Positions 3,367 to 33,560 of a DNA stretch of 64,000 nucleotides are shown here, one piece after another. Each line of letters opens with the position of its first letter. The stretch's first letter is position 1. The DNA is taken from assembly GCF_025602895.1 (NCBI RefSeq), contig NW_026516217.1, forward strand, positions 744,001-808,000. The letters run 5' to 3'. The notes under the pieces are model-generated. The model did no database searches and was not told the origin of the DNA. It worked only from the letters and a program-made list of their open reading frames with translations. This stretch comes from Polychytrium aggregatum. Its lineage: Eukaryota; Chytridiomycota; Chytridiomycetes; Polychytriales. Both the position numbers and the translations under genes were made by a program.

Positions 3367-4091
3367 GCTGCGAGCTCGGGTGCACGAATGGGTCGCTCAG
3401 GGCGGGTTCGGGCGGGTTTGAGGCAAGACAGGCGCAAGGCCGGTTCGGTAGAGATGGATGGGAGCGAATGAGGGCAGAGTCCGAGAAGCAAGCCCGGACA
3501 GGAAGGACCCGAAAAAACGCGCCTGGCAGAGAGAGGGCGAGAGAGAAGGCGAGAGAGAAGGAGAGAGAGGGGGGGTGCAGCCGCACAGCTCGGAAAGCAG
3601 AATAACAAGTGCGGCGAGTCTGTCTGGAACTGGATCTGGATCTGGATCTGGGACTGGGACTGGGACTGAACTTGGACCTGGGACGGATTGATATAGTCAA
3701 GAACGCACTTTGCGACCATATGCCCGAGCGAGATGCCCAGCGAGATGCCCAGCGAGATGCCCAGGCCAAGCGAGGCTTCTGCCCGTTTGGGTGGGGTGTC
3801 TGTGCGACGTTCTTGGCAGCAAACAGACCCTTTGTCGGGCATGCAGCGCCCACACGTGACACTGGCACAGCCGCATCGGAAATCGGAATGGCGTGCTTGC
3901 TGGTCGTGGCCAAGGCGCGACACAGGGCAACACCAAGAGCGCTGTCCGGCTTGCGGCTCCCACACTCCCAACGGCCAAGGCCGAATCCCGAAACCGCACA
4001 ATCACGTGCATGCCCGTTTTTTTTTTGCCCCAGGGCCTGCAAAACACGATCTGCGGTATTGCTCGATCCAAGCGAGCGCTGTTCCGACATC
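3367..4091. promoter_or_regulatory. Divergent upstream region between the RhoGEF and Trm732 genes
   Basis: About 725 bp with no supported gene. It holds short GA-rich repeats (about 3530-3570), a hexamer tract of the GATCTG/GGGACT type (3630-3670) and a three-fold GAGATGCCCAGC repeat at 3728-3763. A T run lies at 4017-4026. It must contain the promoters of both neighbours; no clear TATA box was seen. Confidence 0.4.
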
Positions 4092-7000
4092 ATGCGCAAG
4101 TCTCGAACCCCCGGGCCCAAGGATCTCGCTCCCCTGGTATTCCCTGCGAAATGGACGCAGCGGGCCGCCGAGTATCTGCCGGCCAACAAGAGCCAGGCGT
4201 CTGTGCTGGCTGTGATCCGGGAGCTGGCCCAAGAACACAACGCTCGGTCTCAATGCACCGTTCTGAAGAGACTAGGTGCGTCGGACTGGTCCTCACTGAC
4301 CGGTGCCTGCCGTCGCCATCGCCGTCACGCAACCGCCGTATTCGTTCGTCATCTGGGCCGCGGCCGCTTGGCCTGCAGCATATTGCCTTGGAACTTTGCC
4401 CTTACATCGTTACGACATGCCTCTCTCCTCACCTTCGCCTCGGACAACTACCGACCATCCATCAACCTGCTCTGAATCGGCATTCCGTGCCGCTCAAATC
4501 TCACCATGGCGGCTGGCGTGGTGCTGTGCTGTGCTGTGCTGTGCTGCGTGGCGCTCTTCGATCCAATCTCATGTCGTGAAACGGAACTGCCGACACATCT
4601 CCGGCTCGGCTCGTGTCGGCCTGCCCATCGCATCGTCGCATCATTCTGCGTCATGATCGCCTTGCGCTCTCAAAGCATCGACGCTCTCGGCTGTCTGCTC
4701 GCAGACGCTCAAGAGAGATCATGTGCAGTTTATCTCCGAGCTGCTTGCGCCACTCTTTGTCGAACTCTACTTTGGCGCACCCGAATCGCAGATCCGCGTC
4801 CTGATCATTGCTGTGTTGGCAAAATCCAGGGAATTCATCGAAGATGATCCGCAGTTTCTGGATCGCATGCTCGCCAGCGGCTTTTCCAATGCGCTGCAAG
4901 CTCCTGGACAGACCTTGGCTCGACAAGCTCAGCTGGATCGCATAGTGCACATCTGTGGAGTGATCCAGACCACCGCTGACTGGCCCATCGGCCGGCAGCT
5001 CCTCGCCAACGCTTTCGAGACCACCAGCAACCATCTCGCATCCCAATTGGCCTGGTCCTTTACCGAGGCACAGGCCCTCATCGCCCAAAGCAAAATCTCG
5101 GGTAACGGAGCTACCACTCAAATCGAGATTCAAAAGTATGTCGTGGGCGCCCAAGAATGCCTCAAGGCAATGCTCTCGCTGTGGACAAAGTTCACCAAGG
5201 CCTCCGCTGAACACATCAGGCACACGCTCGAGCTCGGAAACGACTCCACTCGCCAGCTCCTAGCCATCTCGTTTGCCCTCTGCTTTTCTGGCGATTTTCC
5301 CCGGGATATCCAGTTCTTGGCCGGCGTCTTTGCAGCGTCGCTTCTGCAGTGCATCCCCGTTGTCGAATGGGGCGGCATCGTCTTTGCCGGCTCTGTCGAG
5401 TCGCAGCAGCCGCTTGCTATCCCAGGTCTCCATATTCGATCCTCGATCCTCTGTGAGGAACCTTATGCAGTGCTATCGTTTGTTCGAGGATGCCTGGCAG
5501 TACTCGACGTTGATGATCTCGTGGTCCGACTTGCACGGCCTGGAGAAAGGTACAAGTCACGCGCGGCAAATGGTCGTTGGGGATATTGAGTCATCGAGGG
5601 ATACATCCACATGCACACCGTGAGATCGAGTGTCGTGTGCCAGCACTTACCGCGGCCTTTTCTGTTGTTCGCGGCTCCTCCCGCAACAGTAGCGAGACCA
5701 CAAATCTCCTCGAAGTAACCTACACTGAAATCATCAAGATCTGCGACAGCAATCCCGATTCAGGCACGCGGGTCATGGCCTTGACGACGCTCGCCCAGTG
5801 TCTCGAGCGCATATCCGAGGCGCAAGGGCTTGATCGCAGCGCTCAAGTCTTCCGTCAGTCTAGCTTCGAGAAAACCATTCATCACGACCTCTACGGACGT
5901 CTGTTTGCATATGTGTTTGACGGCTGGAACGATCCCGTCGACAAAGTCCAGCACTGTGTAAGTATCGAGCTGGCCCCAGCCATCCCAAAACCAATCATCA
6001 ACATGGCGACTCCTGCACCTGGTTTCAGGCCTCGCTGACACTGACTTTGCGTGTCCAAGCTCAGGGATATATTTCATGGCCTCCTGGCCATATCCAGCCA
6101 TTATGAGGACCCCAAAACTGGCGCCAATCCAACGCTCAGCCGAATCCTCGACAACCTCCTCAAGTCTGACTGGCACCAACGCGTCAAATACGATCTGCTT
6201 TCGCTCTTGCTGACAAGAATCCCACCCAGCAAGTTGCTTGCGCTGAGACCCGATTTCCTTTCTTTGTGCTTCGACGTGATGAGGTAGTTCCCGATGTATC
6301 AGCCCAGCCGTCACGCTGTTGTATAGTGCGCTTGTTTCAACTGCATTTGGACTGGCAAGAAAGCAGCCGCACTTTGTCGAGCCAAAATGACGAGGGTTGC
6401 TGATCGTCACCCACCCGTGCCCTCTAGAAACGCAATGATGGTGTCTCCGATAGCTGCATTCTTGAACCGATTCTTCGAAGCCGGATTCAAGGAACCCGAA
6501 GAAAAATGGAAGGTAGTAAAAGTGCCGAAACCGCTGGTTGTGGTGCCGCTGCTCTCAAGCGGCACTGACTCTCCATCCTCCCCCTATGGTCCAAACAGAG
6601 CGATGAATGGTGGCTGGTCCCTGTTATTGAGTCTTTGACAAGCGAAGCCGAGGTTCTCCGCAAGGCCATGGGCGAGCACATCGCCGCTCCTCTCATGAAA
6701 CAGCGAGGTGACATACTGGCCATCCTCATGGAGGGTACGTATATATCTGCACAACTGTTGCTCTGTGTCTTGGTTCAGCGCAGGATTCCTGACACTACGA
6801 ACAGAGCTTCGGGCCACTCAGAGCGGACAGTCCAAGATGAATATCTCCTATCGCCTCCATGGCTTGATCTCGGTCCTCAAGGCCGGCCGAACCGTTGGTG
6901 CGGTCGCCTCAATTGGATCCACAGGTACCCGGGCGAATCCAGTGTTGTACCGTTGTAGCAGCGATCGTGGCGAGATTCCCCACTGATCACTCGCATAGCT

Positions 7001-23222: not shown

Positions 23223-24487
23223 GCGCCGATGCTATCTCCGAGGTTATCTCTGAAGTTGTTTCTCTCCGAGCTAAGCTCGCTCGGAGGTTGTTTCTCTCTC
23301 TCCCTCTCTCTGTTTGCGTCGCCGTCGCGCAGTGTTTGGCTCAAACAATCTCCTCCCGTCCAGTCGCCCGGCGGCCTCGCCAGCGGAGTGTGCTCTCGGC
23401 GCTCTGTCAGAGAGCAGAGTTTCCACAAAGAAAGCGGATCAGCCCGGCCCTCGCAGTGGTTCGGCGCGGGCGCACATGACCGGGGCCGCGCACGCCATCG
23501 CCACGGGATGTCCTTGGCTGCCGATGTGCATTTCGAATGCAAGGGCCAGGCCGGGGGGTTGTTCGCGCGGATGTGTTTGCATTTCGCACGGCTTGCGTGT
23601 GTTGAATGTTGTCGATTGCCGCTCGCTCCGTCGAGATGTTGCGGTCGTGGACGGACTCTATGCGGCGGACATCCATGGAGATGATTTGATCCGGTTGTTA
23701 TTTCCAGCACGGCATACCACTTGCGTTCAGACTTTTACACTTGCGTTCAGACTTTTACACTTGCGCTCCATGCTCGCCCTGCCGGCAACGCAAACCCACT
23801 CACGCCCCGCCACGCCATGTGTTGCAGCTCAGTCCTCCCACGCCCGGGCTCCACCAACGCCGAGCCCATTGGCATTGGCATCCGCTGGACCCTGGGCTGG
23901 ATCGTGCACTTGTGCTGCACTCTCGTTCGCCCAAGTGCCCCCCCCCGCTGTCCTTCTTCGCCACGGCACATTTGTTGCTCACCACGACGCATCTGTTGCG
24001 CAACCGCCGTCTGCGCCTGACCCGCCAACCCAAACAATAAGCCTCTGTCCACTCGGGCCTGGGACACGGGATGCTGCTCAGACGGGTCTGCTGGACGTGA
24101 GCCCGCAACGCCGTCGATCCAACGGACAGCCAAGCGAACAGCCAACTGCCGTATGGCTCGTGCCGCTCTCGTCTCCGTGCCCTCCCGGGAACGGCGCATC
24201 CTCTCTGTCGCAAACGACATGGGCATGATGCCAGCAGCACCTATCGACCCCGCTGCTTCTGTGCAACATGCCCATGGCGCCTCCACTCCACTCCCACACG
24301 TGGCCATGTCTCAGTGGCCGGGCCAGCAAGGGTTTCCACCACCATCCACCACCCCCCTCATGGCCGCTACCCGCCCCTTGAGCGTCGCCCTGGCCCCAGT
24401 CGGCCATAGACCCGTTCGTTCAGCGAAATCCCTCCCACCCTGCCCTCCCCGACTCACCGCACATCCACCAACAACCCGCCCTTCGCC
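23223..24487. other. Upstream region of the EF-hand gene, no supported gene
   Basis: About 1.26 kb between two divergent genes. Contains pyrimidine tracts (23290-23320) and a 20-bp direct duplication at about 23718-23760 (unit CTTGCGTTCAGACTTTTACA). Long open frames here are GC-driven and lack domain content. Confidence 0.4.
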
Positions 24488-25700
24488 ATGCAGCGTTCAG
24501 CCACGCGTTCTCAGAAACGGCCACCCGAGCCGCCGTCCCAGAAACAGTCCACCTCGGCTTCGCCGCGGCGTCTCTCCACCATCCAGTCGTCCTCCTTCAA
24601 GTCTTCGCCATCGTATTCGGTCCGGGATACCTCCATCTCTCAGCCACAACCCAAGCGCGAGTGGGTCCTAGATCCGGCTCTGGTCACTCAGACTGGTCTG
24701 TCGTCTCAGGAGCTCACGGAGCTGGCCGAAATATTCGCCCTTGTCGACCGCGACCACGGCGGCACCATCAGTCTCGATGAACTCGCCCAGCTCATGACCA
24801 TAGTCGGCCTCCAAGCGAGCAAATCCGAGCTCGAGACCATTATTTCCGACATCAACCTCAAGGCCGAAGCCGAAATCGACTTTCTTTGTAAGCCGCCAGC
24901 TTGATGCATGTCGCGTCGGCCATGTGCGAGTCCCTGGGGCCGAGTAGTCGGGTTTGTCTCTCGAACCGAAGGCCAGACGGGGCTACTCGGTCCCACTCAA
25001 ACGAACAGACCAGCAGAGTCAATCTGCCAATCGAGGGAACTGACCTGCCGCCGGGGTGCTCGGGACCATGTTGTTTGCCAGCGTTCGTCCAGGCCGTGAG
25101 CCGCAAACTGGAAACCAGTATCCGGCTCGATGATCTCTTGAAGGCGTTCCGACAATTCATGTGAGTCGACGCCACCAGCCACCATCTGTTGCAGACATAC
25201 ATATTGTGCCTATCGAGATGCACGTCTGCCTCATCACGGTCAAGCATCACACACATTCGCAGTAGGCCAGCAAAATCTCACCGGCTCCACTGATCCGGCA
25301 CGCGTTGTATCCTCATCCTGCCGTCTTCAACAGCCCCGATGGATACGACGGGACCACCGACGTCTGTCTGAATCAAGACATCGTAATCTCGATCTTGACC
25401 GAATATGGCGACCCAGACAAGCGTCTCAGTACGGTCGACGCTGCAGAGCTGATCGAGCAGGTGGGATGGTCAATTCCGCACCACCGCAGCTCCAGCCCCG
25501 CGCTTGAGCTTCCTTGGCGGACAGCGATCCGCTCTAGCGTGTTCCCAGCGCCTCTCCGGCTCAAATTCCTGATGCCGTCGCTGTATTCCCCGCTCCATCG
25601 CTGATTCGATCCCATTGTCTCCAACAAGGTTGCACCCAGCGGGATGTCGGGGCCTTTCGACTACATTCAGTTCATTCACATGTACTTTGAGGGCATATAG
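24488..25700 (+). CDS. EF-hand calcium-binding protein (calmodulin-like)
   Basis: Putative Ca2+ sensor. ATG at 24488 (MQRSATRSQKRPPEPPSQ), stop TAG at 25698-25700. Four exons. Residues 1-55 are a Ser/Pro/Lys-rich tail. The first EF-hand is canonical (loop DRDHGGTISLDE) within LAEIFALVDRDHGGT. The second hand is degenerate (SELETIISDINLKAEAEIDF). Exon 2 gives FVQAVSRKLETSIRLDDLLK, exon 3 VISILTEYGDPDKRLSTVD, exon 4 SGPFDYIQFIHMYFEGI. So the layout is calmodulin-like with four hands but only one intact loop, which suggests weak Ca2+ binding or a structural role. Exon 2 to 3 junction is approximate. Confidence 0.7.
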
Positions 25701-26485
25701 ATCTTGCACGTCCTGTTTTGCTTGATGCCTTCTCGACTTGCCGGCACCGGACGGACAACTACACCACGATGAAAAATTTGGGGCCACCTGTATTGCCCAA
25801 GATGAGTAACTCGGGACCAGGTCAGCAGGCTCAAAGTGAGTCATAACGACTCATCCAACGACCCAGATCATTGGCACGTTCTGGCTCGAGCCATGCATCC
25901 GGCTCGAGTTTCCGTGTCGGCTCCGCACAGAATTTCTTAGTGTCAGCGCGGTTGCACAAACCCATTCCCGTGCGGCTCTCCCTGCCCTGCTTCGCCTCCC
26001 GACTGCTTCGCCTCTTGGACAGAACCGCTCCCCAGGCGACGGAAATGGCTGTAAATAGCGAACAATTTTCTTATATTCAGCTGTCCAAGCTGATTTGCAG
26101 TAGTAATAATAATTGAGCAAAATTGGAAAATTACTTACCGGTATCCAGCCATGAATACACTGAGAATCAAAGTGCAATTGGCAGTCAGTTACGAGGCAGT
26201 TATGCAATCATAAACGAAGGTGCGGTGCAGTTCCGGCAGTACTCCTTACCCAGTTTGGGAGACTGTCGAAACCCATCACTATTCCTGTGGAGTAATGAGG
26301 GAATGGAGTGGTATATCCGCAGAAGATGGTGAATATTCAGCAGCCGAGAACAAGACCAGAACGCTCGAGCGTAGACCGATATGCAGTATGGGTTCACTGA
26401 TGGGGTATTGACGATGGACGATTGTTGATAGGAAGTCTGGAGAATGTCTCACCTGGTTCGGGGGCACGAGTGGCTCGGTGCATCA

Positions 26486-27334
26486 TCAAATCAAATCGAA
26501 CCACTCCTGGTTCTGATAAAGGCTTTGGAGCTTGGGCATAAACTCATAGTACGTATAGGTCTGGGCGTTCTTTTCAGAAAGTTGAATCTCGTCATTCGAG
26601 AGAACCTTTCGAAAGCTTAAGCCCCGATTTTCTCCACAATGCGGGCATGTTCTCTCCGATTGATGATCGACATCAAAGGCAATACAGCTGTTACGGCAAC
26701 AAGGAAGAGAAACTGCGCTCTCTGTTGATAATTGGTCCATGTGTTTTCGGATTTTGTAAAGACTCGGGATGGTGGGCACGGGGCTTCCAGTATATATGCC
26801 AATATATTTGAGAATCTCCTTGATCGCTCTATCGGACGTGTTGCAGTCAGTCATGACCTTGACGATTCCCAGGCAAAACGGGTCGATTTCTTCGATACCA
26901 TTTTCGAGAGAAACCAAAGTGATCAGAATCTATCATTTTTCGGCAAAGGGGTGTAAGAAAAGTGTGCTTGGATGAGGATGGGTCCATCTGTTCATCGATT
27001 GGTTCGGCTGAGGGAGCGGCGAAGATATCTCCCGGACGATGACTCCGGAACGGCGAACTGGAGCCCGGGGCCAGCGAGGATTGACAGAAGTGTTGGAGGG
27101 CTGACTTGTTGGAGTGGAGGTGCTGTAATTACGGACTTGGGGAACCTCGGGAGGAAACCCGTAGATATAGTAGTGATTGTAGTATGTTGTTGTCGAGACG
27201 ATGCTGTAGGCTTTTTAGCCCGTTCTGCACTTCATGCATTGACAGATGGTTTTGTTTTTGGGCGGAGACTGGAGCAGGGTTGCCAATGCTTCACCGCGAA
27301 GAGGAGGAGACAATCGAGAGGGGATGTCGCTCAT
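26486..27334 (-). pseudogene. Decayed DNA transposase, CxC/Tnp2-like fungal type
   Basis: The 3' part (26486 to about 26930) is open and reads SLPCCRNSCIAFDVDH, then TCPHCGENRG, and ends FMPKLQSLYQNQEWFDLI. A Cys-rich knuckle followed by a pair of CxxC residues and the closing P.L.SLY.N.EW segment is typical of Tnp2/plavaka-like transposases abundant in fungi. The likely N-terminus starts at ATG 27334 (MSDIPSRLSPPLRGEAL) and contains KTICQCMKC, the CxC motif often found at the start of such proteins. Between the two parts the frame is broken (stops near 27215 and 26930) and the catalytic domain is missing, so this is a remnant. Family assignment is by motif style only. Confidence 0.6.
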
Positions 27335-27544
27335 TGCAAGGAAGCTGGAGGATGATACAGCGACGACCCGGCTGGAGGACAAATCCAGCGAAAAATCACA
27401 AGTCCAAAGAGGGAAGCGCGAGCTGTCTGGCATTTGCCGGGATGGAAGCAGTGCTGCGCACAATGCGCAGTCATCGCCTATTGGCCAGGATGCCGGAGGG
27501 TTGAAGCAGCGCTTTGGTTGCAAGATCACCACCGATGGGAATGG

Positions 27545-28597
27545 ATGAGCACCACACCAAGTCCCAAGATCCCTGGGTTGGCTTCCTTCCTGCAATACAT
27601 TCACCATGTGTTCGATGGAGACATGCTGGACAAGCAGCTGTACTTCAGCCTGACCCGGCGACGGCGGTTCAAGCGACTCGATCTCTACAGCAAGCGACAG
27701 CGCACTGTCCACGAGATGTGCAAGCGAGTCATCGACCAGGCACCAAGGGAGACCGAAGTGGTGATTGCCTTTGGGAATGCATCCTGGAAACAGGGGAAGG
27801 AATACGCATCCAGTCCCAGGAGACTCAGGTTCGCCAAGTACTTTGAGCAATTCCACCACCACCAGAGACGCCCACCAGACCGATCCGTCTCCAAGATCCA
27901 TGTGTGCTCGGTGAACGAGTTCAACACGTCCCAGGTGTGCTCACATTGTCGGGAAGCCAAGCGACTCGAGTCACCCGAGCATCTTGATGTCGAGAAACCA
28001 CACTTTGTCCGGAGCTGTGCAAGCTGCCATACGCTGTGGGATCGAGACATCAATGCCTCAAGGAATATGATCTCGGTATGCCAGTCGATCATCGCCCATG
28101 GAGATCGGCCGGGTGTATTCAAGATCATGCTTCCCAAACCAACCAAAACAAAGAGATTGCCAACGAAGACAGGAGTGCAATGCCACGGCCTACCCGCTGG
28201 GCCTACAAGTCAGTCAGCGGGCTTCAGACATCTGAAGCCAGGAAGGAACTGCCCCGTTTCTTTCTGGATAGACTGTAAGTATCTCGCACTGTTCCTTGAG
28301 TATTTCGACAGTGGATGCCGGGTCGCCCATATTCTGGGCAGTCCACTTCGGGGTTGCCATCCCTCTTGGGATGGTGATGGGAGGTGGTTGACTCCCTTGT
28401 GCAAAGTGTGTGTGTGTGACGGCGAGAGGCTTCTCGCCTTCCCTCGGGGGTCTCTCGCCAGAGACTGCTCTTCTCGCCGACTGAGGTGGCTCCGAGAGCG
28501 CGTTTTGTCGTTCTCGCTCATTTTTTTAACAAGAAATTTTTTCATAGTGCATGCCCCTTTGCCGATCCAGAGACCAAAATGCAGGAGGATTGTGTAG
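27545..28597 (+). CDS. Fanzor-family TnpB-like RNA-guided nuclease, 5'-truncated
   Basis: Fanzors are the eukaryotic relatives of TnpB, RuvC nucleases guided by an RNA made from the transposon end. The frame starts at ATG 27545 (MSTTPSPKIPGLASF) and is open to 28597. It contains the helical middle part (FDGDMLDKQLYFSLTRRRR, then YSKRQRTVHEMCKRV), the strand VVIAFGNASWKQG, then VNEFNTSQVCSHC, whose Glu (codon 27917-27919) fits the relocated RuvC-II glutamate of Fanzors, the second zinc pair CASC and the RuvC-III block WDRDINASRNM (from 28037). The RuvC-I aspartate region is missing in this frame; upstream GAVITDLGNLGRKPVD (about 27115) in another frame may be its remnant. The open tail after NASRNM is longer than usual. 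Likely inactive. Confidence 0.72.
   Translation: MSTTPSPKIPGLASFLQYIHHVFDGDMLDKQLYFSLTRRRRFKRLDLYSKRQRTVHEMCKRVIDQAPRETEVVIAFGNASWKQGKEYASSPRRLRFAKYFEQFHHHQRRPPDRSVSKIHVCSVNEFNTSQVCSHCREAKRLESPEHLDVEKPHFVRSCASCHTLWDRDINASRNMISVCQSIIAHGDRPGVFKIMLPKPTKTKRLPTKTGVQCHGLPAGPTSQSAGFRHLKPGRNCPVSFWIDCKYLALFLEYFDSGCRVAHILGSPLRGCHPSWDGDGRWLTPLCKVCVCDGERLLAFPRGSLARDCSSRRLRWLRERVLSFSLIFLTRNFFIVHAPLPIQRPKCRRIV
28415..28530 (+). ncRNA. Candidate Fanzor guide-RNA (omega-RNA) region
   Basis: Overlaps the 3' end of the Fanzor frame, as omega-RNAs do in TnpB/Fanzor loci. Two perfect hairpins follow each other: GGCGAGA-GGCT-TCTCGCC (28421-28438) and GTCTCT-CGCC-AGAGAC (28450-28465). TCTCGCC occurs three times (about 28432, 28453, 28472). 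A run of seven T (28521-28527) ends the block and could act as a Pol III terminator. Inference from structure and location only. Confidence 0.3.
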
Positions 28598-29153
28598 TCA
28601 TCCACGTGTTTGCCCATGCCCGTCGGTAGACTCAATATAAATAGTAATATCGTCATCCTGGACCCCAAGCAGCTCGATGAGTCGTGATACTCAAGAGTAT
28701 CCCCATTTTGAGAGCTCTCTTCGGGAACATGAACTCACAAGCCCATCCGTCATGCGATGATGGGTCACCGAGTACCACGATGCGTCCATAACCACTGTTC
28801 TGTGACAAGTTGATGATGGCTGACGCAAATCGACTCGCTGGATTCACAGCCATGCAGGATCCGAGGATGCGGGATCCTTCGTCGTCCTGACTGAAATGAG
28901 CTCGCCGCCGATGTCTTGGGAAGAGCAAAGGAGCCGGCTTGGTGGCGTTGGAACGCGTTTCCGTCTTGGCTGGCAGGACACGCACAAGAGAGCATCGAGG
29001 CAGATTATCGAGACAGCCCAAGAGCGGCCCCCTCTTCCTTCCCCTCGCCGATACCGCCTCCCCTCGCTCCATCCGTCGATATCGCCGTCTTGGTGTTGTC
29101 AGGCCACAGGCGACAAATCCAGCCCCGTCAGCTGAACCAGATACCACACCGTC
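28598..29153. promoter_or_regulatory. Upstream region of reductase A
   Basis: Holds TATAAATA at 28636-28643 on the plus strand. The minus strand is open between about 28890 and 28653 with a non-repetitive peptide (SRFASAIINLSQNSGYGRIV then WACEFMFPKRALKMG), which may be a gene remnant, see findings. No complete gene. Confidence 0.35.
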
Positions 29154-32100
29154 ATGGCAAACGACCAAGATGTCTCTGAGGATATCGAGCCTCTTGTTCC
29201 CCAACAAGCCCAGACCCCTGTCTCCCAGCAGCCAACCTTCCCTTCTCCGCCCGATCCCTTTGGCCCCTGGCTCCATCCCGTCGAGTGTCTCATCAACATT
29301 GCCCGCGACGAGCCCGATGCCCTCCTGATCAATACCTACGAGAGCGGCATCTCGGAGCGACTCAGCTATCTCCGTGTGTGGAAGCAGGCGTATTCGGTCG
29401 CCCAGGCTCTCAAGGCTCTCCCTGGCTGGAACGACGACGACCACGAGGTCATCGGCACCTTCTGCGAGGCCGAAGCCAGCTGGGTGATCTACTCGTTTGC
29501 TGTGTGGATGCTTGGCAAGTGAGTATCTCTGGTCTGGTCTGGTCTGGTCTGGTCTGGTCTGGTCTGGTCTGGCCTGCCTGTGCATGATATGACTGGGAAT
29601 TGTCCCTGCCATGACCAGGATCGAGTCTCATCTGTCCCTTGTTGCCATCCAGGAAAACACTCAACCTCGCTCTCAATTTCCCTGCCGCTGTTCGCAAGAC
29701 TCTGTGCGAGAGGTTTGTCCTTGTGCTCGTCTCACATGTGTCTCAGGTGATTGACATCCCAGAGACCTCTGTGCTCAACCTGACTCGACCTTGACTCCAA
29801 TCGAAACAGATACTTCATCAAGTACATCCTCTACCACCACAGCAAGCCTGGCCGCACCATTGGAGTGACGCTGGTCGATGCCACCACGTTCCCTGTGCTG
29901 GACAACATCCCATCCCCGTCTCTCGAAGTCTGTGAACCCCTTGATGATTATGTCACCATCCAGTGCACCTCTGGAACAACGGGTATGTGGAATGGTTGAG
30001 CGTGATGGTCCAGCAGCAAAGCAGATGGTGCAATGGTGGATAGAGTAAGATGGTGAGTGTGGTGAATGTGGAAAGTGATATACTGACGATGCATATCCAA
30101 CCCACAACCCGACTCCTTCGTCCTGCATCCTGGCTCCTCGTCGCTCCCACAGGCATCCCCAAGTCGTGAGTTCTACTGTGGTTTCTGATGCTGTGGATTC
30201 TGATGCTGTGAATTCTGATCCTGTGTCTACCTGATGCTTGTTCCCATTCACAAAAGTGATCGCATCACCACTCGTTGACTGAATCCTTCTGTGTTTGATG
30301 GTGATTGTTGCAGGTTCCAGTTTGCGCACAATGGCGCAGTCACTGGTCGAACATCAGTTGGTATGCTGAAGAGTAGCGTTGGGCTATTGCAGGTAATTAT
30401 GCTTGACATCGAATATCGAATTGATACTTGGGCAATGGTGGGTATACTGACATTGATGATTCTCAGCCTCCATCGTTTTCGACGACATTTATTGTATTGC
30501 TCAGCGCCCTTAATCTTGGAGGATCAGTGTGGATTCCGAAGCCGACATTCCACACAACTGAGCAAGCAAAGAACGTTGCTCAAATTTTGGATGATGGCGT
30601 TGCCTACGTGGCACTCGTAAGTGACCAACTATCCAATAAGAAACCTTACCACTCACACGCTAATAGCATCCAATTTTCACAGTCTCCCTCTTTCATGAAG
30701 CTGATCATCAGCACGGCCGCTTCCTGGAACCCGAACATCAAGTGGATGAACACAAAGAAAGTGCTGGTCGGCGCAGAACTCGTACCAATGAGCGTCATTC
30801 AAATGACGAGGGAGAGATTCCCAAATGCCGAGTTCCAGTCAGCCTATGGATCGAGTGAGGTACAGTCCATGCTTGATGGCTTGTATTCTCACAACATTCG
30901 GCAATCACTAAACACAATGCCTTCATCAGGCAGGAGTTATTGGTGCCTATTCATTTTTGCGGATCCTGACCAACAGCCCCATCCCAGAGAAGTTGGTCTA
31001 CAAGCTGGCCAAGCCTGGGGTGCGATGCCTTCTCTTTGACGAGGAGGGCAATATCGTTGATCAAAATGTCTCCAAGAGCGGGATCCTGGTCTTTGCCGTC
31101 GACCCCGACCATCCCGTCCGCAACCACCCCGACTTTGTCAACGCCGATCCAAACGACAGACTGGCCTCCTTTGGCTTCCTCAGCGACGGCTCGCCCCGAG
31201 TCTGCACCATGGACTGGGTCGAGATGGTCAGCGAGAACGAATTTACTGTCGTTGGAAGGTGAGTGCGATGTCCCTGTATCCACCGAGTGGTCTGTGCCCT
31301 CCTTCCACTAGTCCTCCACCAATCCATCCCACACCCCGATCCAACATGTCTCTCACACCTCCAGATTCGACCAGAAGATCAAGGTCAACGGCGTCTATGT
31401 CGACCTGAACCATCTCGAGGCCCTGGTCGTCCAGCACTTGAGCCACACCATCGCCGACTGTGCGTTTGTCCAGACCTCCGAGAAGAAGATCGTGATGCTG
31501 TATGTTCTCCAGGCCCGCCCCACGACCCGCACCGAGCCCAGCGACATCATCCGGATGACTCAGGATCTGCTTGCACTCGTCAACGTCTCCAAGGTGCCGA
31601 TCCACAACTGCTTCCAGCTCGACGAGATCCCCATGACCGAGATTGGCAAGCGCGACCTCAAGAAGATCAAGTGGATCGCCGAGAACAACGATCTGCACCA
31701 AGGATCCGTTGTGTATCCCCGTCTCGCCCCCAGCGATGCCCCGCTGTTTCGCATCGCGGCTGCAATCTCCAGCCTCGGCAGCCAGCTCCTCGGGATTCCC
31801 TCTCTCGACGGCCGCAACTACAGCATCAGCGGAGCTGGGTTTGACTCGCTGAGTGTTGGCCGCCTGGCCCTGGCTATCAAGGAAGAGTACGATGTCGAGA
31901 TCTCGCCGATGATGCTGCTCTCGAACGGCCTGACGCCCCTCGATGTCGCCCAGCTGGTGATTGATCTCCAAGGCAACCACCCGCTGATGTCGCCGACAGT
32001 CGACCTCGACCAGGAGGCCGCCCGGCTCGACGATGCGAGTGTGACGGCCGAGGGTCTCCCTCCACTTGTCTTTCCCGAGTCGCCTCGCGGCATCGTCCTG

Positions 32101-32815
32101 ACGGGGGCCACTGGCTTTCTCGGATCGTTCCTGCTGTACGAGCTGGCTGCCAAGTTCCCTGCTGCCAGGATCTACTGTCTGGTCCGAGCCGCGAGCGACC
32201 AGGCTGCCATCGACCGCATCTTTGAGACAGCCAGGAAGCTGATCCTCAACCCGCAGCAGACGCACTACCTCGTGAACAATGTCAGGCCGCGACTCGTTGG
32301 TGTCTGCGGCGATCTGTCGCTCGACCAGTGGGGACTGACCAACAAGCGATGGAAGAAGATCGGCAAGGAGACCGACATGGTTGTGCACTGCGGCGCCGAG
32401 GTGCACTGGCTCGACGACTATGAGGCGCTCAAGGGGCCGAATGTCCTGGGCACGGCGACGGCCCTGCGGCTGGCCACGACCCACCACTTGAAGCCGCTGC
32501 ACTTCATCCCGGCGGTCGGGGCGATTCCCATGGCACGGGGTGCAAGGACGCCGCTCGAGGAGAGGGTGTATTCCAACTGGAACGTCTCTGGCGGGTATGC
32601 ACAGACCAAGTGGGTCTCTGAGCAGCTGATCAACAAGGCACGATCGAGGGGAGTGCCTGCGACGATCATCCGACCATCGCTGATTGCAAGCGACAGTGTC
32701 TATGGAGGTGAGTCACTGGATGTGATATGGCAATGTGGTGTGGTGGTGTGGTGGTGTGGTGGTGTGGTGGTGTGGTGGTGTGGTGGTGTGGTGGTGGTGC
32801 AGCAGCTCATCTCAG

Positions 32816-32890
<75 letters not shown>

Positions 32891-33560
32891 TCAGTGTGCC
32901 ACTCGGACGACTACATCTGGCAGTATATCAAGGGATGCATCCGCATCGGGATCGCTCCCTCCAATGCCACCCCCGTGACCATCACCATGAATCCAGTCGA
33001 CCATGTCGCCAAGGTGGTCGCTGCGATCGCTGCCTCCGAGGTGGCCCTGCCCAAGTTTGTGTTCCACATCAGCGACCCAGAGCGCAGGTGAGATGAGCGA
33101 GCGAGCCGAGTGGCAAGCGGACTGGGAGGGCAGCAGGATGAGTGCCATTCCTCGGCAGTCACTCACTCACACCACCATCCCACACATCCTGTCCCTCGGC
33201 CCACCTCGCAGCGTCATCACCGAAACTCGACTCTTTGAGATTGTCAATGCCTCTGGCTGGTCCGTCATGTTCGAGACCCGCGAGCGATTCAAGTCTCTGC
33301 TCCTCACGCCTCAGCTCACCAACGACTCGTCCATGTCGACGCTCATGCATCTGATCCTGAGCATGTCCTTCCTGGTCGACAACACCAACACCCGGTCGAT
33401 CTATCCGGCCCTCGGTTCCCAGGCCGGGAGGATCGCCGGGCGAGGGCTGCTGTACCTGACCCACATCGGGTATCTGCCACCTCCTCCGAACCCTCCGTCG
33501 CCGCTGAGACCCGAGGAGCACCCGCGGCCCAACATCTTTCGTCCCGACACCCACAACTAG
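29154..33560 (+). CDS. NRPS-like carboxylate reductase A (adenylation-thiolation-reductase)
   Basis: Predicted to activate a carboxylic acid with ATP, load it on the phosphopantetheine arm and release it reductively as an aldehyde. ATG at 29154 (MANDQDVSEDIEPLVPQQ), stop at 33558-33560 (IFRPDTHN). Adenylation signatures: CTSGTTGIPKSFQFAHNG split by an intron, FQSAYGSSE, GRFDQKIKVNGVYVDL. Thiolation: SGAGFDSLSVGRLAL, Ser being the 4'-phosphopantetheine site. Reductase: GIVLTGATGFLGSFLLYEL (NADP Rossmann), IPMARGARTPLEE, YAQTKWVSEQLINKA. All domains look intact; about 1,150 residues in roughly ten exons. Several introns carry tandem repeats. The 5' part (29160-30461) is nearly identical to that of reductase B. 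The substrate cannot be read from the sequence; it is not Lys2 by length. Confidence 0.85.
29160..30461 (+). repeat. Long inverted repeat, left arm
   Basis: Pairs with 37480-38775 in reverse orientation. A 184-residue antisense frame is identical in both arms (29775-30329 and 37612-38166), introns included. Differences are a few point changes (for example near 29345), the copy number of a TCTGG microsatellite and a short indel at the first codons. Identity stops about 6-7 bases before an intron acceptor (30466). Confidence 0.92.
29526..29573. repeat. (TCTGG)n microsatellite in reductase A intron 1
   Basis: About nine units after the GTGAGT donor at 29520; the homologous tract in reductase B (38367-38432) has about thirteen. 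Confidence 0.9.
32736..32888. repeat. Two adjacent tandem repeats in a reductase A intron
   Basis: (GTGGTGTG)n at about 32736-32797 followed by (TCTCAC)n at about 32818-32888, filling the intron between the exons ending SDSVYG and starting VCHSDDYIW. The same intron of reductase B has the first type only. Confidence 0.9.

Follow-up and report, generated by a model that had tools for sequence, protein, structure and literature searches.

Fanzors, the TnpB-like RNA-guided nucleases of eukaryotes, are known from several transposon superfamilies. To our knowledge, moves of a Fanzor between such superfamilies have mostly been inferred from trees. We analyzed a 64,000-bp stretch of the Polychytrium aggregatum genome (the window; C57:744001-808000 of a 64.68-Mb assembly, which was also the genome searched) and found a decayed Fanzor fragment that lies, in all probability, in a non-autonomous CACTA/EnSpm-type transposon, which it would have entered by insertion of a Fanzor-bearing mariner followed by deletions.

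Three kinds of described element come close to this locus. In the Fanzor1 mariners PGv-1, PUl-1 and PUl-4 (Bao and Jurka 2013), according to the passages cited here (PMC3627910), a Fanzor either accompanies a mariner transposase or stands on its own between mariner repeats flanked by TA duplications, and three copies in the present genome (L011, L017 and L026) are like them; what we describe differs in that the mariner unit is nested in a CACTA-type element and moves by means of CACTA-type ends, with duplications of 3 bp. Spu-1, the SpuFz1 element of Spizellomyces punctatus, is similar in that a single fungal genome holds Fanzor-only repeats as full-length, partial and ghost copies, and no transposase was found inside those repeats according to the relevant passages, which report 42 and 134 loci (PMC10432273). 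It differs in the 33-bp repeats and putative TA duplications given for SPu-1 (part of PMC3627910) and in that SpuFz1 is only weakly similar to the protein family found here (E 0.01). With fungal EnSpm/CACTA (PMC12730594) and plant CACTA elements (PMC4938662), as far as the cited sections describe them, the elements described here share CACTA or CAC..GTG ends, 3-bp duplications and a Tnp2-like transposase fragment; the cargo reported for the fungal elements in those sections is, in contrast, a TET/JBP dioxygenase, and these genes offer a parallel for cargo moving between transposon lineages (PMC12730594). Hundreds of Fanzor copies are in themselves already known from the cited part of PMC10711439. 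In the Fanzor literature searched, CACTA was not found as a carrier: PMC10711439 contained neither EnSpm nor CACTA and PMC10432273 did not contain CACTA.

The Fanzor fragment and its family

The open reading frames of the window include a plus-strand frame of 413 codons (27356-28597) in which FGNASW, VNEFNTSQVCSHC, CASC and WDRDINASRNM follow one another in this order. Pfam PF07282 (Cas12f1-like_TNB) matched the frame with an E-value of 4.4e-10 (40 bits, cut-off 26.3) and PHROG 506 matched the Fanzor part with 5.3e-9, and the NCBIfam model guided_TnpB gave an E-value of 2e-6 but, at 27.3 bits, did not reach its cut-off of 100. The motifs in this order and the PF07282 match bear out the initial annotation, which had called the frame a Fanzor remnant. 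A lack of significant TnpB/Fanzor profile matches would have told against that reading, and this outcome did not occur. When a full-length copy was used as the blastn query, DNA-level homology was limited to 27503-27572 and 27540-28549; the part of the frame 5' of 27503 is not Fanzor, though it belongs to the same open frame. A short Fanzor piece upstream lies in a different frame from the main part (Table 1) and a deletion joins the two. The motif IGIDPG, which we take to be RuvC-I in the numbering of these motifs, is found at residues 550-555 in L009, one of the long relatives, and is missing from the window copy, as the annotation had also held, and the first D of the TnpB/Fanzor motif is absent as well. 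The window copy, having no RuvC-I, is therefore a fragment and not a working nuclease. Searched alone against the PDB, the window part had the TnpB-like mimivirus protein L79 as its best Fanzor match (E 0.11); the top matches, tetratricopeptide repeat (TPR) proteins at 4.7e-5, were built of many repeats of less than 3 bits each and were taken as chance.

A search of the assembly with the Fanzor part gave 1,461 candidates, and the 150 matches that were scored were 88-100% identical in amino acids, because of which we dismissed a chance match. On sequence grounds the main part of the window copy is confirmed as a decayed C-terminal fragment of a Fanzor. The matched part was stop-free in 136 of the 150 scored rows, and 31 of them belonged to stop-free open frames 800 or more codons long, in line with the expectation that intact relatives exist in this genome. 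Twenty long copies were fetched for their open frames, 17 CACTA-type and 3 mariner-type. The Bao and Jurka motif, scored as D-X(125,275)-[TS][TS]-XX-C4 zinc finger-X(5,50)-RD after the cited part of PMC3627910, was found in 18 of the 20 proteins but not in L015 and L024, and PF07282 matched a long copy with 38.7 bits (cut-off 26.3). The PDB entry best matched by a profile of this family (A) together with a second family (B) was SpuFz1 (8gkh), weakly, at an E-value of 0.01. Foldseek with a low-confidence model (predicted local distance difference test, pLDDT, 44.9) placed only Cas12 or Fanzor structures at ranks 1-11 (best E 7.9e-4), SpuFz1 being second and the mimivirus Fanzor2 seventh. From these profile and model matches we read the protein family as Fanzor, probably of a Fanzor1-like subtype. 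The two scans made confirmed no viral relatives. Family B emerged when residues 100-400 were used as the query: of the 132 rows returned by this N-terminal half, 75 belong to family A and 57, at 39-41% identity, to family B. Family-B frames, ~40% identical to A in that half, are often 809-851 codons long and sit on the same mariner transposase lineage, and a family-B piece in L014 (oriented 1-807) reaches 51-55% identity with A over the RuvC half and has motifs in common with it.

Composite element, CACTA-type family and mariner remains

The pattern CACTATSAAWWWTTT, allowing 2 mismatches, matched only twice in the 64 kb, at the two ends of the element; two or more matches arose in 7 of 100 shuffles. 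Three relatives elsewhere (L106, L107 and L108) part from the window sequence at 25764-25768, where CACGATGAAAAATTT mirrors the right end CACTATGAAAAAATTT, and the alignments with L107 and L108 also end at 28549. The left end reads CACGATG in the window and GATGATG in L107 and L108, and if the latter is taken as the end, TAG flanks these two copies on both sides. In the genome, with up to 2 mismatches, the left-end 21-mer from its ATG on was found at 6 places (0 in the reversed control) and the right-end 24-mer had 118 matches (0 in the control). A Tnp2-type fragment, a Fanzor C-terminal part on the opposite strand and a CACTA right end are common to the window on C57, C48/L107 and C375/L108; a fourth place, C323/L106, resembles the window in the Tnp2 part and at the left terminus. 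L107 and L108, in which the conserved Fanzor stretch is partly gone (window 27686-27930), have 98% identity along 3.4 kb and could go back to a single duplicated insertion. The Tnp2-type fragment itself had no Pfam match above cut-off. Its relatives are three sequences at 96-97% identity and 22 frames at 39%, and because 21 of these 22 are followed on the same strand, at 694 bp from start to start, by a match to PF02992 (Transposase_21/Tnp2), we regard it as a real fragment of a Tnp2-like transposase.

The main elements of the family start CACTATCAATTTTTTCCG and finish TTTTTTCATAGTG, and their ends, CACTATC..CATAGTG, are of the inverted 5'-CACTA..TAGTG-3' type of CACTA/EnSpm. With up to 1 mismatch, 119 left ends were found (0 in the reversed control). 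The 58 left flanks examined fell on 49 distinct sites and therefore some ends represent a single insertion on duplicate contigs; the first duplicated base was T or C at 44 of the 49. Both ends were present in 20 of 31 whole loci and not in the other 11, and 19 slice pairs brought the total to 39 end pairs, 28 of which had an exact 3-bp target duplication (23 of 33 once repeated sites were collapsed; chance ~1 in 64). We assign the carrier to the CACTA/EnSpm type because its ends and 3-bp duplications match the marks given in the passages cited, namely CACTA ends with 3-bp duplications for CACTA (PMC4938662) and CAC..GTG ends with 3 bp for fungal EnSpm (PMC12730594). The initial annotation had proposed a Tnp2/plavaka-like carrier. 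The Tnp2 half of this proposal stands; as to the Plavaka half, CAC..GTG ends with duplications of 3 bp are a better match to fungal EnSpm/CACTA than to Plavaka, whose ends the same source describes as TGT..ACA or CATCA..TGATG with duplications of 2 or 3 bp (PMC12730594, in part). The genome search and flank comparison that it suggested yielded the long copies and the composite common to three places, and its overall reading (a Fanzor in a Tnp2-type element, RuvC-I lost, intact relatives) is supported.

Sorted by distance to the conserved Fanzor part, 37 of the 100 listed left ends lie at 554-561 bp and represent a single internal-deletion form, 28 fall into three long classes and 3 are other; the remaining 32 had no Fanzor part among the matches listed, although L040 and L044 of these do hold one. 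The element of L009 is ~3.69 kb long with a single Fanzor frame of 854 residues, and the smallest members are 250 bp (L039), 278 bp (L064) and 295 bp (L055). Tnp2-type transposase was found in CACTA-type elements as a fragment only, in the composites. By eye, the Fanzor leader of some long copies holds an insert of 366 bp (L009 oriented ~3844-4209, element 450-815) that resembles a small transposon, with TGTCA..TGACA ends and AGAAC on both sides. Head-to-head inverted CACTA left parts, fold-back-like and with a left end on each side, were seen in L042 (C51:45690-46890) and L043 (C142:26570-27980).

In the mariner copies L011, L017 and L026 the Fanzor lies behind a transposase and TA is found on both sides of the element. 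The transposase of L026, the only one on which Pfam was run, is an intact frame of 325 residues with a DDE_3 (PF13358) match at 2.9e-24. The Fanzor proteins of these copies have 83-86% identity with the L009 protein, and the element ends read TACAGYCAAWCCA..., the right end being ~30 bp past the Fanzor stop. The window copy contains the mariner right repeat and no left repeat, and the CACTA-type element also holds a 53-bp stretch of the mariner transposase tail. Since both mariner pieces lie inside the CACTA-type element, the Fanzor most likely reached the CACTA lineage within a mariner that became nested there, which suggests that the nuclease was handed from one transposon family to another, unrelated one. 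At C323/L106 the same Tnp2 fragment lies next to the left end of a mariner and to pieces of transposase, and L008 resembles a mariner-delimited deletion derivative. A listed mariner transposase lies upstream of at least 12 of 75 family-A rows (11 elements) and at least 28 of 57 family-B rows, both lower bounds from 123 scored of 631 transposase candidates. The twelve mariner transposase stretches compared differ by ~1%, as after a recent burst. Many mariners bear family B.

In the course of events that we propose, a mariner with a Fanzor would have inserted into a Tnp2-encoding CACTA-type element, and deletions would then have removed the left half of the mariner together with the greater part of the Tnp2 gene. 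The Fanzor-only CACTA-type element and its deletion derivatives could have reached ~100 copies through a CACTA transposase acting in trans. Intact copies would be putative nucleases directed by guide RNA to related or vacated sites, which they would cut, repair then restoring or copying the element; the window copy, without RuvC-I, would at most supply cis DNA or a guide-RNA scaffold. One genome keeps an apparent intermediate, with mariner-Fanzor elements, a mariner end in CACTA-type Fanzor elements and composites with a transposase fragment. The route of transfer becomes testable and CACTA/EnSpm would join the Fanzor carriers.

Table 1. Coordinates of the composite element and its parts in the window
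Feature	Position	Strand	Extent or basis
Composite non-autonomous CACTA/EnSpm-type element (probable)	25765-28549	.	2,785 bp; end pattern and breakpoints of relatives
Left terminal inverted repeat, CACGATGAAAAATTT	25765-25779	+	Breakpoint of relatives; pattern search
N-terminal cysteine-rich fragment of Tnp2-type (PF02992-associated) transposase	26489-26929	-	Relatives upstream of PF02992
Short Fanzor piece, KQRFGCKITTDGNG	27504-27545	+	Residues 488-501 of full-length protein; tblastn and blastn
Fanzor C-terminal part	27545-28168	+	Starts at residue 624 of P0001; FGNASW, NTSQ, C4 zinc ribbon, WDRD
Candidate guide-RNA scaffold	28138-28277	+	Frame 3' end to mariner right end; inferred
Right terminal inverted repeat of Tc1/mariner, nested, closing in TA	28250-28277	-	Matches right ends of L011, L017 and L026
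CACTA right subterminal region	28278-28549	+	Last ~160 bp retained in smallest member, L039
Would-be guide position if scaffold stops at mariner end	28278-28297	+	CACTA sequence, not host flank; inferred
Right terminal inverted repeat, inward reading CACTATGAAAAAATT	28535-28549	-	Pattern search

Candidate guide RNA and mosaic copies

According to the passages cited from PMC10432273, the guide RNA of SpuFz1 occupies the interval from the stop codon to the right end and the guide follows it, and working scaffolds are also obtained from ghost copies, which lack the gene. By analogy, the mariner-borne copies would have a scaffold that overlaps the 3' end of the frame, and the CACTA-borne copies would draw their guide from CACTA sequence that is largely alike in all of them. 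The candidate scaffold in the window folded with a minimum free energy of -45.3 kcal/mol (z -2.4; 1 of 200 shuffles was equally good), and the 3' region of the mariner copy L011 folded no better than shuffles (z -0.44). In an alignment of 25 copies, some of them near-identical, the well-aligned region beyond the mariner end was most variable at +7 to +26 (entropy 0.66 and 0.49 per 10 columns), and the 90 columns that follow had values of 0.00-0.09. The columns directly upstream of the mariner repeat were equally variable (0.35-0.77) and the variable tract past the mariner end is therefore not unique.

If the guide were read past the mariner end, one guide would be common to all CACTA-borne copies. 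The fullest form of this idea is a guide-locked Fanzor, in which the Fanzor unit is fixed, together with its mariner right end, ~250-270 bp inside the element, the guide is aimed at CACTA elements and the nuclease drives homing-like conversion; we offer this as a prediction and not a finding, and consider it improbable. Were it true, the nuclease would convert related CACTA elements instead of guarding the host site of each copy, and the variable tract and the mosaicism described below would be its scars. A possibly fixed guide position would also be a natural experiment on the need for a site-specific guide. A search with a narrow pattern (zero mismatch, non-G before TA) found no unoccupied CACTA sites matching the fixed guide, which speaks against abundant present-day targets. 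The only place that the pattern matched, C399/L111, is no empty site, as it holds a Fanzor remnant whose mariner end has a point change. Alternatively, the CACTA-borne Fanzors may take their guide from beyond the CACTA right end, each copy then having its own host-flank guide like ordinary Fanzors, which we regard as possible without favoring it. This would agree with the SpuFz1 RNA, which in the cited part of PMC10432273 spans from the stop codon to the element right end with the guide beyond, and with the conserved CACTA right end, whose last 160 bp are retained even in the 250-bp member; however, the mariner-borne element stops so soon after the stop codon that its RNA would end there, and the CACTA end lies 250-270 bp further on.

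We measured linkage as the squared allele correlation (r2) between sites in the Fanzor copies. At transversion-only sites in 45 sequences, r2 dropped from 0.43 for sites less than 30 bp apart to 0.042 at 30-100 bp; at greater distances it was 0.024 and 0.020, where permutation gave 0.022. All four gametes were present in 160 of 300 site pairs. Among 17 long frames r2 fell from 0.36 below 30 bp to 0.07 above 300 bp, the permuted value being slightly lower (0.062), and with 6 duplicate rows removed, multi-base alleles were reshuffled within ~70 bp. As judged from these allele patterns, the Fanzor copies are mosaics, near linkage equilibrium past ~100 bp. Fixed differences between mariner (3) and CACTA-type (17) copies numbered 23 in nucleotide columns 0-1199 of the codon alignment, 0 in 1200-2399 and 7 in 2400-2699. 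Gene conversion between copies fits these observations, and gap repair induced by a transposase would explain the mosaics as well as Fanzor cuts. No conversion hot spot was detected near the mariner end, linkage decay being alike along the frame. It is rather unlikely that the mosaicism is an artefact of assembly polishing over repeats, or of recurrent mutation, instead of conversion: r2 decays in the same way at transversion-only sites, multi-base alleles are reshuffled over a short distance and private singletons are retained in the twelve mariner transposase stretches. As controls, the CACTA left region (24 copies; 18 sites, which is too few) had an r2 of 0.08 above 100 bp against a permuted 0.043 and four gametes in 43 of 153 pairs, that is, more linkage than the Fanzor part, and the twelve mariner stretches, with 1% diversity and one usable site, were uninformative.

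The ratio of nonsynonymous to synonymous substitution rates (dN/dS) was 0.35 among the 17 long CACTA-type copies (0.14-0.23 at residues 540-740) and 0.28 among the 3 mariner copies. On these ratios, coding constraint is persisting in the long copies. In the 208-codon C-terminal part, dN/dS was 0.20 for the 17 long copies, 0.24 for 24 truncated ones (20 chosen from the 37 listed and 4 from the genome search, one with stops) and 0.25 for the window against the long copies. The truncated class, at 0.24 versus 0.20, failed as a neutral control. Truncated and long copies are intermixed on the tree, and the truncated ones probably look non-neutral owing to sequence exchange between the classes.

Opposing evidence, remaining alternatives and neighboring genes

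Several observations weigh against the interpretation given above. The window element is flanked by CAC (25762-25764) and CAT (28550-28552), an imperfect 3-bp duplication; the left end of L107 and L108 is altered, and an exact duplication is lacking in 11 of the 39 end pairs. No transposase was recognized when the frames of the Fanzor-only element L009 were inspected by eye, without a Pfam run, and no PF02992 match was seen within 10 kb of the listed ends (100 left and 100 right, compared by eye). Resemblance to solved Fanzors is weak, with an E-value of 0.01 at best: the whole protein alone found no Fanzor in the PDB at E up to 1, nor did a profile of the 17 family-A proteins at E up to 10. 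The structure models were poor (pLDDT 37.8 and 44.9) and the Foldseek template modelling (TM) scores were ~0.2. Covariation supporting a guide RNA was absent from the alignment (term +0.06). Toward both ends of the protein constraint was weak, with a dN/dS of 0.66 at residues 0-100 and of 0.57 at 810-854, and selecting long copies by open frame favors intact ones.

We also considered the reverse direction of transfer, in which Fanzor A would have been first in the CACTA-type element and later acquired by mariner. CACTA-type A copies do seem commoner, the mariner transposase count upstream of family-A rows being at least 12 of 75; nevertheless we judge this order of events quite improbable, for the CACTA-type element holds the mariner right repeat with its TA and the transposase tail, the three mariner copies have no match to the CACTA terminal regions, and family B is also on mariner. 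That the Fanzor remnant and the Tnp2 transposon are chance neighbors, as the lack of an exact target duplication and of the Fanzor left part in the window copy could imply, is hardly credible given the identical join at three places and the same two endpoints, with TAG on both sides, in L107 and L108, even if these two are one duplicated insertion and the independent cases are reduced to two.

Next to the element, at 29136-33096, lie exons of an adenylation-carrier-reductase gene with PP-binding, NAD_binding_4 and (below cut-off) AMP-binding matches, which we take to be aminoadipate-reductase-like. At 24410-24901 there is an EF-hand exon, presumably of a centrin/calmodulin-like gene, whose Pfam EF-hand matches are below cut-off. 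A short GGTCT tandem repeat, seen by eye at ~29530-29572, lies immediately 3' of a candidate splice donor.

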